64,000 bases of DNA, from NCBI RefSeq assembly GCF_014930455.1, contig NZ_JAAIYO010000005.1, positions 372,001 to 436,000 on the forward strand, given 5' to 3'. The number at the start of each line of letters is the position of its first letter. Position 1 is the first letter of the stretch. Shown here in pieces: positions 23,883-62,906 of this stretch. A program made the translations under genes and the position numbers. The DNA is from Corallococcus soli. Lineage in GTDB: Bacteria > Myxococcota > Myxococcia > Myxococcales > Myxococcaceae. The notes under the pieces were generated by a model, which saw nothing but the letters and a program-made list of their open reading frames with translations, was not told the origin of the DNA and made no database searches.

Positions 23883-24088
23883 GTCCCGCCCTCCCCTGTT
23901 CACCTGAAGCGTTGTTCCCATCGCGTCCACGCTGCCGGGAACGCTCCCGAACCTTCTCGCGCCTGCGCATGCGATGCGAGCAGCACCTGTCGTGACGAGA
24001 CAGGGCTCGGGAACGAGGGCATGTCCGCTTGGAAGCGAAGGTCGTGACTCTACATGAGCATGGCTCCGGCCCTTATGATGCCGCCCTG

Positions 24089-25675
24089 ATGCCTCTCCGG
24101 ACTCCCGCCGCCTCGCCCTCCGGAAGGACGTACCTGCGCGGCCTGTCCGCCCGAACGGTGCTCGACCTGCTGTGCCACACGCGCGCGGCCCATGCGGTGC
24201 CTGACTCCGGGCTCGCCGTGAGGCTGCCTCGCGTGATTCGGCCGGGGCACACGTGTGAAGATGAAGACGCACTCGCGGCGCGGCTGCTGTCCATCTGGTC
24301 CGACACCGTGCGAGCCCATGTGGAAGCCGGCCCCCACGAGGTGAGCCTGAGCGGTGGGGTGGACAGCGCGGCCCTGTGCGCGATGGTCGCGCGACATGCC
24401 CCCGGCCGGGTGCGCGCGTGGACCATGGACGTGCACTTCGCGGACGCGGTGGAGCGGAGCAACGCGCGGCGGATGGCACAGGTGACGGGGGCGGAGTTGG
24501 TGGACGTACGCATCCCCGACGCCGTGCTGCCGGACCTGTTCGAGCAGGCGGTCCTCGCCAACCAGACCGTCATCCTCAACGCCCGCGCCGTGGCGAGCTT
24601 CGCGTTCTACCTGGAGGCCCACCGGCTGGGCGCCGGCCCCGTCCTCCTGAGCGGCGCGGGCGCGGACGAGGTCCTCCAGGGCACCCCGGGCGCCATGGCC
24701 TCCGCAAAGGCCCGTGTGGATGAAGACCGGGTCCTCGCCGTGGAGGTCTTGCGGCCCGGCGCGCTGGCCGCGCTGGTCGACGAGGCCCCGGTGCCCACGA
24801 CGGGCCATGTCACTGTGGACAACTTGCGGGCCTCGTTCAGCGGCGACCCGCGCGATCATGAGGATGGCCTTGGAGCCCCCGGGGGGGCTGTGGACAACTC
24901 GGGAACACCTCTGGGTCAGGCCAAGGCCCGCGATCAGAAGTCGGCGGCCCGCGCTGCATCGCCCGCTGGGGAAACCGGGGCCGTTCCCTCTGGAACCCGT
25001 GGTCGCGATCAAACAGTGCCCTCGCGCGCCGGGCTCCAGCCTGTGGACAACTTGAGGGGTGTTTCCGAGGGCGTGAACAGCGATCACACTCCAGCGTCCC
25101 CCCCTGTGGACAACCTGGGGGACGTACTCGCGGCGCTGCCCGCTCCGTGGGAGCTGTCCCCGGTGGATGCATCCGCATCCGGCGAGCTTCGCTACGCCGA
25201 ATGGGTGCTGCGGGAGCTCATCCTCCCGCCCGAACTGCGAGGCGCCCGGGCCCAGGGCCTCACCGTCCGCACGCCGTACCTGGACCCGGACTTCGCTCGG
25301 ATGGCGCTCGCGCTGCCGGAGTCCGTGCTGATGCGGGATGGGTTCGGCAAATGGCTGTTCCGTCATGCGGTGCGTTCGCTCGTGCCCGATGAGGTGCGCC
25401 TCGCGCGCAAGCTGCCCCGATATGGACACACCGCGCTCTCCAGTCCGGTGCGTTCGCTTTGGCTGGAGCTGTACCGCGCCTGGCTGTGCCCCGAACGACT
25501 GGAGCCCCTCCAGGTCATCGATCCCCAGGCGGTCTCCCGCCTGCTGGAGCGCTACACGCGCCTGTCGCCCGAGGACGCTCGGGCCGGGGTGATGGATCGA
25601 TTGTTGATGCGACTCGTGTCCCTGGCCATGCTCCAGGCCCACGCCGAGGCGCATCCCCCATGTCCCGAGTCCTGA
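24089..25675 (+). CDS. asparagine-synthase-like amidotransferase without glutaminase domain, carrying an in-frame repeat array
   Basis: A 528-residue protein with the ATP-pyrophosphatase fold of asparagine synthetase: P-loop SGGVDS at residues 88-93, SGAGADE near 189-195, and the C-terminal block VRTPYLDPDFARMALALP followed by GKWLFRHAV and RKLPRYGH. The usual N-terminal glutaminase domain of about 200 residues is absent. Such stand-alone synthase domains occur in lasso-peptide, beta-lactam and amide-forming pathways. Residues about 241-342 are a low-complexity insert with alternating VDN and RD(H/Q) motifs, encoded by the DNA array described separately. The start is uncertain (ATG 24089 or TTG 24029). 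The gene overlaps the downstream glycosyltransferase by 16 bases. Confidence 0.78.
   Translation: MPLRTPAASPSGRTYLRGLSARTVLDLLCHTRAAHAVPDSGLAVRLPRVIRPGHTCEDEDALAARLLSIWSDTVRAHVEAGPHEVSLSGGVDSAALCAMVARHAPGRVRAWTMDVHFADAVERSNARRMAQVTGAELVDVRIPDAVLPDLFEQAVLANQTVILNARAVASFAFYLEAHRLGAGPVLLSGAGADEVLQGTPGAMASAKARVDEDRVLAVEVLRPGALAALVDEAPVPTTGHVTVDNLRASFSGDPRDHEDGLGAPGGAVDNSGTPLGQAKARDQKSAARAASPAGETGAVPSGTRGRDQTVPSRAGLQPVDNLRGVSEGVNSDHTPASPPVDNLGDVLAALPAPWELSPVDASASGELRYAEWVLRELILPPELRGARAQGLTVRTPYLDPDFARMALALPESVLMRDGFGKWLFRHAVRSLVPDEVRLARKLPRYGHTALSSPVRSLWLELYRAWLCPERLEPLQVIDPQAVSRLLERYTRLSPEDARAGVMDRLLMRLVSLAMLQAHAEAHPPCPES
24814..25114 (+). repeat. periodic array of TGTGGACAAC (DnaA-box-like) and GCGATCA elements inside a CDS
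   Basis: Four identical TGTGGACAAC elements begin at 24814, 24889, 25042 and 25105; a degenerate one (TGGGGAAACC) is at 24967. Between them are four GCGATCA elements at 24852, 24930, 25005 and 25080. Measured at the GTG and GAT codons the steps are 39, 36, 42, 36, 39, 36, 39 and 24 bases. All elements have one orientation. The complement of TGTGGACAA is TTGTCCACA, the DnaA box of high-GC bacteria. Wobble bases are held constant (CT before GTG; GAT not GAC) although flanking residues vary, so the constraint seems to be on DNA. Confidence 0.75.
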
Positions 25676-51737: not shown

Positions 51738-54700
51738 GTGTTGTCTCGTTCAAACTTCGTGCGCGCCCTCGTGGCGTCACTCGTGCTCATCACCCCGCCT
51801 GCCTTCGCGCAGGCACCCGGCGCCGAGCCGACAGCCCCTCTTGCGCCGTCCCCCTCCGCCACGCCCGGCACGCAGCCCGCCGGTGAGCTGCCGCCTCCGC
51901 CGGGGACGTCCGGTGCCTCCACCGCGACACAGCCGGATGGCGCGCTGCCCACCAGCCCCGCGCCCTCGCTGGGGACCCAGCCCGGGAGCGCCGCGAATCC
52001 GCTGCCCGCGTCGGGGAGCACCTCGCCCACGCAGTCTGACGCGACCGCTCCCGCGCAGGCCGCACAGCCTGGAACCTCTGCTCCCGCGCAGGCCGGAACC
52101 TCCACACCCGCGCAGACTGGGACCGTTGCTCCCGCGCAGGCTGGGACTTCCGCGCCTGCACAACCTGGAACCGCTGCTCCCGCGCAGGCCGCCCAGCCGG
52201 TGGATCCTTCCGCTCCCGCCGCCGCGCAGTCCGATGCCGTGACGGCTCCCTCCGCCGTGCCGGCCGAGGCCACCGCGTCCGACGAGGCCGCCCTGGGCGA
52301 CGACGCGCTCGCGGAGTCCTCCACGCCGCCTCCCGGCTTCACGGGCATCCATGGCCGGCTCACGGACGAGGCCAACGGCGAGGGCCTCATCGAGGCCACC
52401 GTGAAGGTGGTGACGGGCTCGCAGAAGCAGGCCCTCACCGACCTGGACGGCAACTACCGGCTCGCGCTGCCGCCGGGCAAGTACGACCTGCGCGCCTTCT
52501 ATGACGTGTACCAGGGCCGCCGCATCACCGGCGTCGTCGTCACCCAGGGCAAGGCCACGAAGCTGGACGTCGCGCTCAGCGCGGATGTGGGCGCGGTGCA
52601 GGAGGTCGTCGTCGAGGCCCGCTCCGACCGCCGCGCCGAGGGCGCCCTGCTCCAGGACCGCAAGAAGGCCGCCGCCGTCTCCGACGCCATCAGCGCGCAG
52701 GAGATCGCCCGCACGCCGGACTCCAGCGCCGGTGACGCCGTGAAGCGCGTGGTCAGCGCCACCGTGGTGGACGGCCGCTACGTGCTGCTGCGCGGCCTGG
52801 GTGGCCGCTACGCCACCACGCTGCTCAACGGCGCGCTGCTGCCCAGCCCGGAGCCGGACGAGCCCAGCGTGCCGCTGGACCTGTTCCCCACCAGCCTGCT
52901 CGCGAACCTCAACGTGGTGAAGAGCTACACGCCGGACCTGCCGGGCACCTTCGGCGGCGGCACGCTCCTCATCGAGACCAACACCTACCCGTCCCAGTTC
53001 GAGTTCAAGCCGCGCCTCACCCTGGGCGGCGACACCGTGACGACCTTCCGCGAGCGCAACTCGCAGGCGCAGGGCGGCTTCGGCGAGGCGCTGGGCTTCG
53101 CGAACTCCAGCCGCGGCCTGCCGTCCGAGCTGCCCCGCGACCACCGCCTGGGCGCGGGTGGAGAGACCGCGCAGCAGTTGGAAGGCCAGTGGGAGAGCTT
53201 CACCAACGTCTGGGAGCGCCGCACCACGCGCGCCCTGCCCAACCTGGGCCTGGGCGCGTCGCTGGGCGACACGCTGCGCTTCGGCAACCAGCGGCTGGGC
53301 TACCTGGCCACCGTCAACTACGGCCACCGCGACGGCGTGCAGACGGGCGACTTCGCCCGCGCGTCCCGCGACGAGTCCGGTTCGCTCATCCCCCAGGACG
53401 TCGCGCGCACCACGCAGGGCTTCTCCACCGCGAACCTCAGCGGCCTGGCCAGCGTGGGCTACCAGTTCGACCGCGACAACGAGCTGACCTTCTTCAGCCT
53501 CTACACGCGCGGCACCGACACGCGCACGTACACCGCCAATGGCAACAACAACGTGCGCGGTGATTCCTACTCCAGCACCCGGCTCCAGTTCATCACCCGC
53601 GCCCTGTCCTTCAACCAGCTCCGGGGCTTCCACCGCCTGGGCCTGCTGGGCGACGCGGAGCTGGACTGGCAGGCCAACCTCTCCCGCGTGGACCGCGACG
53701 AACCCGACACGCGCGACACGCTCTACAGCGCCAGCCTCAACAACCCCGGCGCGCAGCTGTCCTTCCCCAACCAGCCCAACAGCGGCGAGCGCTTCTTCGC
53801 CGAGCTGGGCGAGACGTCCGCTGGCGGCAGCGTCAACCTCACCCTGCCCTTCACCTCCGACCTCAAGGTGAAGGTGGGTGGCCTGACGCAGGTGTCCTTC
53901 CGCGACTTCAACGCGCGCCGCTTCCGCTACCTGCTCAACGACACGCCGGTGGACCGCACCCAGTCCCCCGAACAGCTCTTCTCGCCGGAGAACGTGGGCA
54001 ACGCCATCACCGTGCGCGAGACGACCCGCGCGGACGACGCCTACAACGCCTTCCTGGGCATCTACGCCGGCTACGTGTCCGCGGACTACCAGCCCCTGGA
54101 GCCGCTGCGCCTGGTGGGCGGCGTGCGCCTGGAAGCCTCCCAGCAGAACCTCACGCTGAAGGACCCCTTCACGGGCGTGGAGGGCGAGGCCGGGGGGACG
54201 GATCAGCGCTACCTGGACGTGCTGCCGTCGTTCAACGCCATCTACGCGCTGTCCGACAAGGTGAACCTGCGCGCGGGCTACAGCTACACGCTGGCGCGGC
54301 CCACGTTCCGCGAGCTGGCGCCCTTCATCTTCTTCGACTTCGTGCGCCGCCGGAACGTGTCCGGCAACCCCGACCTGCTGGAGACGCGCATCCACAACGT
54401 GGACGCTCGCGCGGAGTGGTTCGTCGGAGAGAACGACGTGCTGGCCGCGAGCGCCTTCTACAAGCGCTTCCAGGACCCCATCGAGCGCGTCATCCGCAAC
54501 CCGGACAGCGGCGACCTGGGCTTCGAGAACGCCGCGGGCGCGGACAGCTATGGCCTGGAGCTGGAGGCGCGCACGTCGCTGGCCCGCTTCAGCCCCGCGC
54601 TGCGCCCGGTGCGCATGGGCGCGAACCTCACGCTCATCCAGTCGCGGGTGGACCTGGGTGACTCCGCGGTGGTGGGCGCGCAGACGAACAAGGACCGCCC

Positions 54701-59714: not shown

Positions 59715-60047
59715 GGCCGTCGTCTCGCTTCCCTGGGGCGGCCTTCCCGCCGCTCCCACCCGGACCCGAGGCCCTGGATGGCGCAGGTGATAACCCCGCC
59801 CCCTGAAAGCGCTGAATGAAGCGCCGTGAAGAAGTGTGAACCGCCATAGCAGCCCACCTCACGCCCGCACCCTGCCCACCCTGGACGTCCAGTCATTTCC
59901 ACGGGTTGTCACAACCCACCACACCCACGTCCCCCCCTGCTGGCACCCGGAGCGAAATCTTCGCACGCCATGCGAGCGCGCCCGGGACTTTCGGGCGAAG
60001 GCGAGTATGCTCGGGCTTTCCCCTTTACCGGCCCCGTCTGATCGCCC
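59715..60047. other. 333-base divergent promoter region before the Ser/Thr kinase
   Basis: It holds no gene that I can support. Notable structures are the perfect palindrome TGGACGTCCA (59882-59891) and a 7-1-7 palindrome GGGTTGT-C-ACAACCC (59903-59917), either of which could be an operator for the divergent genes. Confidence 0.5.
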
Positions 60048-62906
60048 GTGGCAGAACCCAGTCCCCAGCAATTCGGCAAGTACGTCCTGGTCTCCAAGAT
60101 TGCCGCGGGGGGCATGGCCGTCACGTATCGCGCGCGCCTGACGGGGGCGGCCGGCGTCACGAAGCCTTGCGTCATCAAGCAGATCCTCCCGCACTTCGTG
60201 GACGACCACGACTTCGTGGAGATGTTCATCAGCGAAGCGCGCGTCGCGGCCGGCCTCACGCACGGCAACATCGCGCAGATCTTCGACTTCGGTGAGGTGG
60301 ACGGGCAGTACTTCATCGCCATGGAGCTGGTGCACGGCCAGCCCCTGTCGAAGGTGCTGCGCCGCGCGGCGCGCGCCGGGGTGGGCTTCCTTCCGCAGCC
60401 GCTGGCGCTGCACATCGCCAGCAAGCTGTGCGAGGGCCTGGACTACGCGCACCGCCACGTGGGCGAGGACGGCCAGACGCTGGGGCTCGTGCACCGCGAC
60501 GTGTCCCCCGACAACGTCCTCATCTCCTACGAGGGCGAGGTCAAGGTCATCGACTTCGGCATCGCCAAGGCCACCAGCGCGGTGGAGGCCAAGACCTCAC
60601 CCGGCACGCTCAAGGGCAAGTACCCGTACTTCTCCCCCGAGCAGGCCCGGGGACGGCAGGACCTGGACGCGCGCACGGACGTGTACGCCGCAGGCATCGT
60701 CCTCTACGAGATGCTGTGCGGCCGGCGCCCCTTCGAGGGCGAGTTCGTCACGGTGCTGCCGCGCATCATCGACGGGGACTGCCTGCCCCCGTCCGCCATC
60801 AACCCGGGCGTGGGCGAGGACCTGGAGCAGATCGTCGCGCACGCGATGGCGGTGGACCGCGACGCGCGCTACCAGACGGCGAAGGACCTGAGCGAGTCGC
60901 TGGTGGAGATGCTCTACCGCGACACGCCGCGCTTCACGCCCACGATGCTGAGCCAGCTCATGGCGTACCTCTTCGCGGAGGAGCTCACCGCGGAGGGGCG
61001 CAAGGTGGAGCTGCCGCCCAGCTTCAAGGATCAGCTGGCCGCGTGGCAGTCCCCGTCGTCGGAGCCTTCCCAGGGCCGCGCGCGGATGCCCTCCAGCAAC
61101 GGCCGGGTGTCCAGCCCCGGCGGGGTGCGCGCGTCCAACCCGGGCGTCCAGCCCCGGGCGTCCAGCCCCGGCGTGCGCTCGCCCAGCGCGTCCGGCCTGC
61201 GCCCCACCCCCACCAGCGAGGGCGGCAGGCGCGGCACCGGCACGCAGGCCACCGTCGTGCGCAAGAGCGCCCCGGGCACCCGCCGGGTGACCACGCCGGG
61301 GGGAACGCGGGAGACCACCGGCACCGGACGGCGCCCGCTGCCGCCCGAGCTGCCCCCGGAGCCCGACACGGACTCCGGCATGGAGCCCACGGCGATGCCG
61401 GTGCTCCCCACCTACGCGGCGCCCCGGGACACGCCGGTGGAGACGCCCGAGGCGGTGCCCACGGAGGTGGGCACGGAGGTGGGCGCGGACGCGGAGGACA
61501 AGCCCGCGCTCCGGGTGCGCACCACCGTGGACGAGGCCCGCGAGAAGCTGGCCGCCGAGGACGCCGAGCGCGAGCGCAAGCGCGTGAAGCAGGTGCGCGC
61601 GCTGAGCCTGGGCGTGTTCGCCCTCACCGCCGTGGTGCTCTTCATCGGGCTGCTGGTGCACCTGCTGTCGCCGCCGGAGGTCGCCACCGAGGAGTCCGGC
61701 CCGGTGGCCATCCTGTGGATCACCTCCAAGCCGGAGGGCGCCTCCATCGTCGTCAACGGCCAGCCGTCCGGCACCACGCCCAACCGCGTCCTGGGCGCGG
61801 ACGTGCGCACGCCCCACACCATCGTCATCACCAAGCCGGGCTACCGCGCGTGGACGCGGCGCTTCTCCCCCAACCAGGCGGAGTACCACCTCAAGGCGGA
61901 GCTGGAGGTGGCGCCCGGCACCACCCAGATGGTGTCTGAGATCCCCACCACCGGCATCGACGCGGGAGGCGCGTCCGTGGACGCGGGCGCCGTCGTCGCC
62001 GCGCTCGCCGGGGACGCGGGCACGGACGCCGACGCGGGCACGGACGCTGACGCGGGCACCGCCGTCGCCGCGCTCGCCGGAGACGCCGGGCTGGAGGACG
62101 ACGGGGGCACGGCCGCCGTCGCCGCCGCGACCGAAGCGCCGCTCGAGGGCCTGGACCGCGAGATGCGCGTGGTGGACTACCCCACGCGCCTGCTGGTGCT
62201 GCGGCCCGTGTACAACGCCCTGCCCGTGCTGGAGTACACGCCGGCCACCATCGACGTGTCGCCGGGGACCGGCTACTCGGTGTGGACCGAGGGCAGCGCG
62301 GCGTTCGAGAACGGCGACGGCACCGCGTCCGGCACGCTCATGTACTACGCGGAAGGGGAGCTGCCGGCCGACAACGCCGTGGGCTTCATCAGCGCCGCGC
62401 CCCGCACCCTCAAGGGCGCCAAGCGGCTGCACTTCTTCGCGCTGGACGACACCGGCCCGGAGGACAACCGGGGCTCCATCCGCGTGCACCTGCGGCAGTC
62501 CGTCTACGTGCCGCCGCGCTCCGTGCTCTTCGAGCCCCAGAAGAACGCCTTCCAGGTGAAGGCCCGGCACCAGATGCTGCTGCGGGGCATGGACCCCAAG
62601 TCCACCTACCTCATCACCGTGCGCGACGACTTCGCCGAGGTGCGCGCCGGCGCCCAGGGCCGCGTGAAGACGGTGCTGTGCGTGGAGAAGGGCCGGGCCC
62701 CGGAGGACGTGCGCCGCTCGCACCGCCTCTTCGAGGCGGGCAAGCGCTACCAGGTGTCTGGCGTCAAGGACCTGCGCTGCGTCTTCCCGGACACGAACCT
62801 GGACGACAACAGGGGCGCGCTCGACTTCGACATCGTCGACGTGACGAACATGTCCCGCAAGGAGCGCGCCGAAGCGCTCCGCGGTGCCAGCCGCTCGGAG
62901 CGGTAG
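60048..62906 (+). CDS. transmembrane Ser/Thr protein kinase with PEGA domain
   Basis: A 952-residue receptor-like kinase. The kinase domain covers about residues 10-275: Gly loop KIAAGGMA, Lys44 in CVIKQIL, catalytic loop HRDVSPDN (149-156) and DFG (169-171), and the activation segment ending FSPEQARG. A long disordered linker with SSPGVR-type repeats follows, then one transmembrane helix near 515-540 (LSLGVFALTAVVLFIGLLVH). Outside are a PEGA domain (ILWITSKPEGASIVVNG) and a unique C-terminal half. The start is GTG 60048. Typical targets of such kinases are FHA-containing proteins; none is adjacent. Confidence 0.9.
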   Translation: MAEPSPQQFGKYVLVSKIAAGGMAVTYRARLTGAAGVTKPCVIKQILPHFVDDHDFVEMFISEARVAAGLTHGNIAQIFDFGEVDGQYFIAMELVHGQPLSKVLRRAARAGVGFLPQPLALHIASKLCEGLDYAHRHVGEDGQTLGLVHRDVSPDNVLISYEGEVKVIDFGIAKATSAVEAKTSPGTLKGKYPYFSPEQARGRQDLDARTDVYAAGIVLYEMLCGRRPFEGEFVTVLPRIIDGDCLPPSAINPGVGEDLEQIVAHAMAVDRDARYQTAKDLSESLVEMLYRDTPRFTPTMLSQLMAYLFAEELTAEGRKVELPPSFKDQLAAWQSPSSEPSQGRARMPSSNGRVSSPGGVRASNPGVQPRASSPGVRSPSASGLRPTPTSEGGRRGTGTQATVVRKSAPGTRRVTTPGGTRETTGTGRRPLPPELPPEPDTDSGMEPTAMPVLPTYAAPRDTPVETPEAVPTEVGTEVGADAEDKPALRVRTTVDEAREKLAAEDAERERKRVKQVRALSLGVFALTAVVLFIGLLVHLLSPPEVATEESGPVAILWITSKPEGASIVVNGQPSGTTPNRVLGADVRTPHTIVITKPGYRAWTRRFSPNQAEYHLKAELEVAPGTTQMVSEIPTTGIDAGGASVDAGAVVAALAGDAGTDADAGTDADAGTAVAALAGDAGLEDDGGTAAVAAATEAPLEGLDREMRVVDYPTRLLVLRPVYNALPVLEYTPATIDVSPGTGYSVWTEGSAAFENGDGTASGTLMYYAEGELPADNAVGFISAAPRTLKGAKRLHFFALDDTGPEDNRGSIRVHLRQSVYVPPRSVLFEPQKNAFQVKARHQMLLRGMDPKSTYLITVRDDFAEVRAGAQGRVKTVLCVEKGRAPEDVRRSHRLFEAGKRYQVSGVKDLRCVFPDTNLDDNRGALDFDIVDVTNMSRKERAEALRGASRSER
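61990..62090 (+). repeat. short tandem repeats in the extracellular linker of the kinase
   Basis: An 18-base unit, GACGCGGGCACGGACGCC, is repeated twice at about 62013-62048, and a longer AVVAALAGDAG/AVAALAGDAG pair flanks it. The repeats encode an Ala/Gly/Asp-rich linker between the PEGA and the C-terminal domain. Confidence 0.7.

Follow-up and report, generated by a model that had tools for sequence, protein, structure and literature searches.

Why does an asparagine-synthase-like gene of Corallococcus soli carry a regular series of DnaA-box-like words inside its reading frame? The gene lies in a stretch of 64,000 nucleotides (contig NZ_JAAIYO010000005.1, positions 372,001 to 436,000), which we call the window and number from 1. 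We compared the series, here termed the array, with its counterparts in other Corallococcus genomes, with the rest of the family, and with the likely replication origin (oriC). We consider it probable, at roughly 60%, that the array is an oriC-like chromosomal DnaA-binding replication-control locus written into a protein-coding gene. The features are as follows (G numbers denote genomes, and L numbers denote loci).

24029 to 25675, plus strand: host gene, asparagine-synthase-like PP-loop enzyme (Pfam Asn_synthase, E 1.1e-35); start codon uncertain
24776 to 25103 (limits approximate), plus strand: in-frame linker with the array, in 16/16 Corallococcus; predicted disordered
24814 to 24822, minus strand: predicted DnaA box 1, TTGTCCACA (TTATCCACA in G013), 16/16 species
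24853 to 24858, plus strand: CGATCA element 1, 16/16 species
24889 to 24897, minus strand: predicted DnaA box 2, TTGTCCACA, 16/16 species
24931 to 24936, plus strand: CGATCA element 2, 16/16 species
24967 to 24976, plus strand: degenerate "fifth box" TGGGGAAACC, discernible in 7 species and lost by deletion in the remaining 9
25006 to 25011, plus strand: CGATCA element 3, 16/16 species
25042 to 25050, minus strand: predicted DnaA box 3, TTGTCCACA, 16/16 species; 18 surrounding bases CCTGTGGACAACTTGAGG unchanged
25059 to 25076, plus strand: TTCC element GTGTTTCCGAGGGCGTGA, similar to an element conserved at oriC; TGTTTCCG unchanged in 16 species
25081 to 25086, plus strand: CGATCA element 4, 16/16 species
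25105 to 25113, minus strand: predicted DnaA box 4, TTGTCCACA, 16/16 species; the sole box also in outgroup orthologues (5/8)

Conserved order and spacing of the array

A first reading of this DNA from its letters (the sequence-only reading) had described four TGTGGACAAC and four GCGATCA words in a single orientation and in frame. All eight are present: we found TGTGGACAAC at 24814, 24889, 25042, and 25105 and GCGATCA at 24852, 24930, 25005, and 25080, all on the plus strand and in frame. The host gene has an orthologue in 16/16 Corallococcus genomes, each of which contains four DnaA boxes (TTRTCCACA) and four CGATCA elements in identical order and orientation. Among these 16 species, the conserved core of the second element was CGATCA, and the base preceding it was variable.

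We found that the start-to-start spacing in 16/16 genomes follows the pattern B-39-G-(36 or 24)-B-42-G-(75, 66, 54, or 45)-G-36-B-39-G-24-B, where B is a box and G is CGATCA. Five of the seven spacings are thus invariant, and the strong boxes of the array are 63 to 153 bp apart. The changes in the two variable gaps (12, 9, 21, and 30 bases) all fall within 0.15 turn of whole helical turns. The probability of this by chance is about (3/7)^4 = 0.03 given 3-base steps, a figure computed by hand after the data were seen, and the helical phasing of the variable gaps is suggestive only.

The degenerate fifth box TGGGGAAACC that the sequence-only reading placed at 24967 held up only in part. It was recognisable (GGRGAAA) in 7/16 species (G000, G008, G015, G011, G006, G009, and G010) and lay in a deletion in the other 9. 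Because of this distribution, we concluded from the alignment that it is not a required box.

Selection on the DNA of the array

In the source gene, GTG is preceded by the codons ACT, GCT, CCT, and CCT, and every GCGATCA element encodes its Asp with GAT. These wobble bases had been read as conserved against preference, and selection on the DNA had been proposed. The 16-species comparison bears out the first claim. When the codons of the 16 genomes were aligned, the base T before GTGGA was kept in 64/64 boxes though the residue was T, A, V, L, or P; codons of the form NNT make up 5.7% of the host-gene core. Likewise, GAT was found in 64/64 CGATCA elements versus 4/36 Asp codons elsewhere in the insert and 93/348 in the core of the gene. 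Just ahead of GAT, R, S, G, C, H, A, or D was encoded, each time by a codon ending in C. In box 2 of G013, Asn is replaced by Lys through the base immediately outside the 9-mer, and the 9-mer is intact.

Changes were counted on a single gene tree, built from the core, in which one clade is weakly supported internally. There was 1 change at the 36 box sites and none at the 24 CGATCA sites, giving 1 change at 60 element sites together, versus 444 changes at 225 other linker sites (sites with a base in 12 or more of the 16 alignment rows). The single element change, in box 1 of G013, converts TTGTCCACA to TTATCCACA, the other DnaA-box form, which is found at oriC. Changes per site at codon positions 1, 2, and 3 were 1.92, 1.99, and 2.01 in the linker and 0.67, 0.51, and 1.64 in the gene core. 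Because changes are equal at all three codon positions, the linker protein outside the elements looks as if it evolves unconstrained. We also found that 63 of the 225 linker bases outside the elements were unchanged, particularly near boxes 3 and 4: around box 3, CCTGTGGACAACTTGAGG is unchanged and is followed by two variable bases and then by the unchanged TGTTTCCG, and around box 4, CCCTGTGGACAACCTGGGG is unchanged.

When all 16 linkers were recoded synonymously 2000 times, the maxima were 7 boxes and 22 CGATCA elements versus 64 and 64 observed. Taken together, the species comparison and the recoding test show that strong purifying selection acts on the DNA of the array, not on the protein, as the sequence-only reading had argued.

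Rarity of the array in the genome and in the family

In the source genome (9.44 Mb, 68 contigs), TGTGGACAA occurs 13 times versus 29 for the reversed-word control, and 4 of the 13 lie within 300 bp, in the array. We found TGTGGACAAC followed by GCGATCA within 20 to 50 bases only in the array, three times. Counts of TTRTCCACA in G000, G003, G012, and G013 were 17, 16, 16, and 12 versus 34, 32, 25, and 20 for the reversed control (sums, 61 versus 111).

Among 145 genomes of the order, a box-CGATCA-box triplet was present in 18. The 16/16 Corallococcus genomes have two each, and both belong to the array; in the other two genomes, G040 and G041, the triplet is the oriC at the start of rsmG. The reversed control of the triplet gave 0 matches in the same 145 genomes. 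We also searched 96 family genomes for two TGTGGAYAA words with starts 54 to 84 bp apart. Such pairs were found in 68/96, and the reversed control matched in 3 genomes, once each. The 16 Corallococcus genomes have the origin box pair and two pairs from the array. With overlapping matches merged, 52 of the 80 other genomes have a pair at one place each and 28 have none; of these 52 pairs, the 14 that were aligned (L105 being the most divergent) and the two that were read (G040 and G041) are at oriC. We concluded that the array is not due to chance. One of the 52 matches, in a small-genome family member (G085:C26:35085-35147), is an unrelated short tandem with TGTGGACA about every 18 bases.

The array is therefore a feature of 16/16 Corallococcus genomes at one locus per genome. 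Rickettsia in-frame palindromic repeats occur in many genes of a genome. They resemble the array in that extra DNA is tolerated as extra residues, and they differ in that the array sits in one gene per genome; the suggestion that the array is an in-frame mobile repeat of this kind was not supported. A mobile element was also rejected, with no match found in phages or plasmids. In viral contigs, the best 80 of 120 stretches had one match each, with no array among the matches listed, a result that says little. Titles and abstract openings of the open-access literature yielded no report of this array.

The elements of the array at the likely oriC

We found that TTRTCCACA clusters occur at only two places in G000, G003, G012, and G013: the array, with four boxes, and a site where two copies of TTATCCACA stand 84 bp from each other. 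This site falls in the gap between rsmG and mnmG (both identified by Pfam), 3.5 to 7.4 kb from a run of 9 to 16 parS sites in 4/4 genomes and, in Corallococcus, about 22 kb from dnaA. We concluded from this arrangement that the rsmG-mnmG gap beside parS is likely the oriC of Myxococcaceae. An oriC at dnaA was dropped as a candidate, as 20 to 23 kb around dnaA in six genomes contained no exact TTRTCCACA and 0 or 1 near-boxes. An excerpt of PMC3899335 places parAB of Myxococcus xanthus about 35 kb from oriC, and that work may have assumed another origin site.

We aligned 23 oriC loci (9 Corallococcus and 14 from other genera) and found TTGTCCACA and/or TTATCCACA there, with the boxes 83 to 84 bp apart in 23/23 loci; the distance is 73 bp in G040 and G041. 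In 22/23 loci, GATC precedes box 1 and follows box 2, and L105 has neither. The second GATC falls within rsmG; there, Asp is encoded by GAT in 22 loci, and the residue after it is Q, L, or R. The oriC box 2 itself overlaps the rsmG start codon (V-D-N) and hence coding sequence (L094:2684-2776 and the aligned oriC loci). We also noticed a TTCC element resembling one in the array and then built a matrix from oriC without the array sequences, using 21/23 loci and dropping 2 without a site. The TTCC element of the array (25059) is the second-best match to this matrix in the window. The best window match, ahead of the array, is at 59892-59909.

The DNA-binding domain IV of Corallococcus DnaA reads KDHST in 4/4 loci examined. 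The identification of the array elements as DnaA sites, which the sequence-only reading had proposed, is supported because TTGTCCACA and TTATCCACA both occur at the inferred oriC, because the sole element substitution yields the other DnaA-box form, because the word is rare genome-wide, and because GATC and TTCC elements are common to the array and oriC.

We measured the distance between the array and oriC as 383, 401, 346, and 383 kb in G003, G012, G013, and G007, respectively. This is 3.80, 4.09, and 3.67% of the chromosome in the three single-contig genomes and about 3.9% in G007. In sequence, the array thus resembles DnaA-box clusters outside oriC in general, having several near-consensus boxes grouped beyond chance, with 4 boxes in 300 bp at 346 to 401 kb from the inferred oriC in these four genomes.

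The host protein and its linker

The best solved folds found by Foldseek for the host protein are a hydroxyamidotransferase, asparagine synthetases, and beta-lactam synthetase. In an AlphaFold2 model of the 531-amino-acid protein starting at 24080 (19 sequences), residues 234 to 374 and 376 to 381 had a predicted local distance difference test score (pLDDT) of <50, with block means of about 23 to 47. The linker is thus probably disordered in this model. We found that the insert is absent in 8/8 outgroup orthologues from Myxococcus, Pyxidicoccus, and Citreicoccus (L050 to L057). Both results agree with the proposal that the protein tolerates the array as a linker of about 100 residues. Ten related loci (L040 to L049), which probably come from genus genomes already in the tallies, served for the structure alignment and were not counted.

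A single TGTGGACAAC stands at the position of the last box in 5/8 of the outgroup orthologues. On this evidence, the ancestor of Corallococcus may have had one box from which the array expanded.

A model for the array in replication control

The findings fit a double-stranded DNA site that would be read by DnaA and a second protein. According to this model, DnaA sits on the four predicted high-affinity boxes, the intervening CGATCA elements are read by a second, putative protein, and the distances would allow the two to assemble into one compact complex. Lying about 4% of the chromosome from oriC, the array would be duplicated soon after initiation and would then bind or inactivate DnaA and so discourage re-initiation, as datA does in Escherichia coli. 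There, datA promotes hydrolysis of DnaA-ATP, and its loss leads to over-initiation. The host enzyme would tolerate the array as a disordered linker. Because the array is near oriC, we favour a sink or inactivator as its predicted effect. A more specific version, which we put forward tentatively and at somewhat less than even odds, is that the array is a new locus with its own geometry. In this version, the CGATCA elements interleaved with the boxes would be read by a myxobacterial origin-binding protein that also acts at oriC, in one helically phased complex setting free DnaA after initiation.

Streptomyces, with a high-GC genome, has a DnaA-box cluster outside oriC that is thought to hold DnaA. 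Closer to hand, the inferred oriC of Myxococcaceae resembles the array in its TTRTCCACA boxes, flanking GATC, TTCC element, and box in coding sequence and differs in having two strong boxes, where the array has four, and a more A+T-rich stretch within Corallococcus. As excerpts of PMC4585315 and PMC5295017 describe it, datA is likewise a cluster of high-affinity DnaA boxes outside oriC with a site for a second protein, its sites conserved and its spacers variable, at a conserved distance that is always close to oriC. It is non-coding, with five boxes and an IHF site, whereas the array has four boxes in a coding linker, interleaved CGATCA, and no IHF-like site. Judged by its sequence, the array is not a datA by membership, as it fails on the IHF site; the likeness is one of working, and common descent is not implied. 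The DnaA-box clusters of Bacillus subtilis also lie outside the origin, and removal of six leads to early initiation (PMC5295017, excerpt). They number several per genome and have a strong effect only if all are removed; the array occurs once per genome, is rigidly spaced, and includes a second element.

Several points weigh against a replication-control locus. The boxes of the array are all co-oriented, unlike those of datA, and no match to the IHF consensus WATCAANNNNTTR with 2 or fewer mismatches was found in 350 bp at the array. The array is confined to one genus; no similar array was found in the 80 other family genomes at 54- to 84-bp spacing, a search in which other spacings would be missed. 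The steady distance to oriC may be mere conserved gene order, and CGATCA is short, its presumed meaning outside the array resting on conservation at oriC. Excerpts of the published work also report that the B. subtilis clusters play no significant part in initiation, with a strong effect only if all six are removed (PMC5295017), and that deletion of datA and DARS leaves cells viable (PMC4585315). Such non-oriC sites may thus matter little. Because the B. subtilis clusters are weak singly and datA is dispensable, a mild phenotype is to be expected.

If the model is right, the array has several implications. The DnaA-control loci datA and DARS of E. coli are non-coding, and here the same kind of site seems to lie in a protein gene, where gene-centred annotation would miss it. 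The array would offer a place at which to test how initiation is restrained in large-genome myxobacteria. It would point to a second origin-binding factor, a putative GATC reader, in the family and supply the sites with which to isolate it. It would also show a protein gaining a linker of about 100 residues for the sake of its DNA, and a nearly free linker around near-invariant elements would be a clean natural experiment in overlapping codes.

Alternative explanations

A DnaA-binding locus of opposite sign, which promotes nucleotide exchange or otherwise activates DnaA like DARS1 and DARS2, would draw on the same evidence for a DnaA-binding array. DARS loci combine DnaA boxes with Fis and IHF sites and stimulate release of ADP. 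A further protein site next to the boxes, such as DARS2 has (PMC4585315, excerpt), would also suit this reading. The array is near oriC, however, and we consider activation unlikely.

We think it quite unlikely that the array serves a regulator other than DnaA that has a TTRTCCACA-like site and acts to organise the chromosome or to regulate genes. No reader of CGATCA is known here, and M. xanthus has nucleoid proteins of its own, such as CdbA (PMC7156744, excerpt). However, the inferred oriC contains the same words along with GATC and a TTCC element, the only substitution in an element leads to the alternative DnaA-box form, and the word is rare genome-wide. The CdbA site is described in that excerpt as a GC-rich direct repeat without letters and so is not comparable.

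Equally doubtful is control by intragenic DnaA of transcription of the host gene and the downstream glycosyltransferase gene, through a roadblock or intragenic regulation. The elements are all in one orientation, and the glycosyltransferase gene is next, 3' of the host gene on the same strand. However, the array begins about 785 bp into the open frame and not at a promoter, and four rigidly spaced boxes would seem to exceed the needs of a simple operator.

A second or backup origin would explain the oriC-like DnaA boxes, GATC, and TTCC elements, but we regard it as very unlikely. In a replication origin, DnaA boxes adjoin an A+T-rich unwinding region. The best 60-bp A+T content of the arrays (38 to 47%, 16 genomes) overlaps that of oriC in other genera (40 to 52%, 14 loci) and is below that of Corallococcus oriC (47 to 58%, 9 loci). 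In equal windows, A+T content thus separates the array from oriC within Corallococcus and not from oriC of other genera. In addition, all four genomes checked have the rsmG-mnmG boxes and parS clusters, and the window has no clear GC-skew switch, which is a weak test.

Protein-level repeats (VDN and D-H/Q) or RNA structure have hardly any probability left: 63/64 copies retain VDN and 64/64 retain the Asp of the second element, but the codons are conserved contrary to usage and beyond the recoded maxima, the exchanges before GAT and the H/Q variation leave the DNA word intact, the Asn-to-Lys change in G013 falls outside the 9-mer, and RNA folding in the window, where RNA structure was rejected, is no better than that of shuffles (z, +0.94). 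An antisense gene was also rejected, with no antisense frame free of stops across all 16 species.

Candidate readers of CGATCA and other observations in the window

Binding of IHF at CGATCA was rejected, as each element has 3 to 4 mismatches to the consensus. We found no Dam methylase over the curated cut-off in the 16 genomes (0/16), with weaker matches in 5/16 (SeqA was not searched for), and Dam-based control through GATC is unlikely at 0/16. The window (1 to 64000) has 84 GATC versus 201 expected from trinucleotides, a >2-fold depletion despite there being no Dam over the cut-off. Elsewhere in the window, tandem repeats lie at 61975-62145 (69/18/33 bases) and 52060-52191 (48/24 bases).
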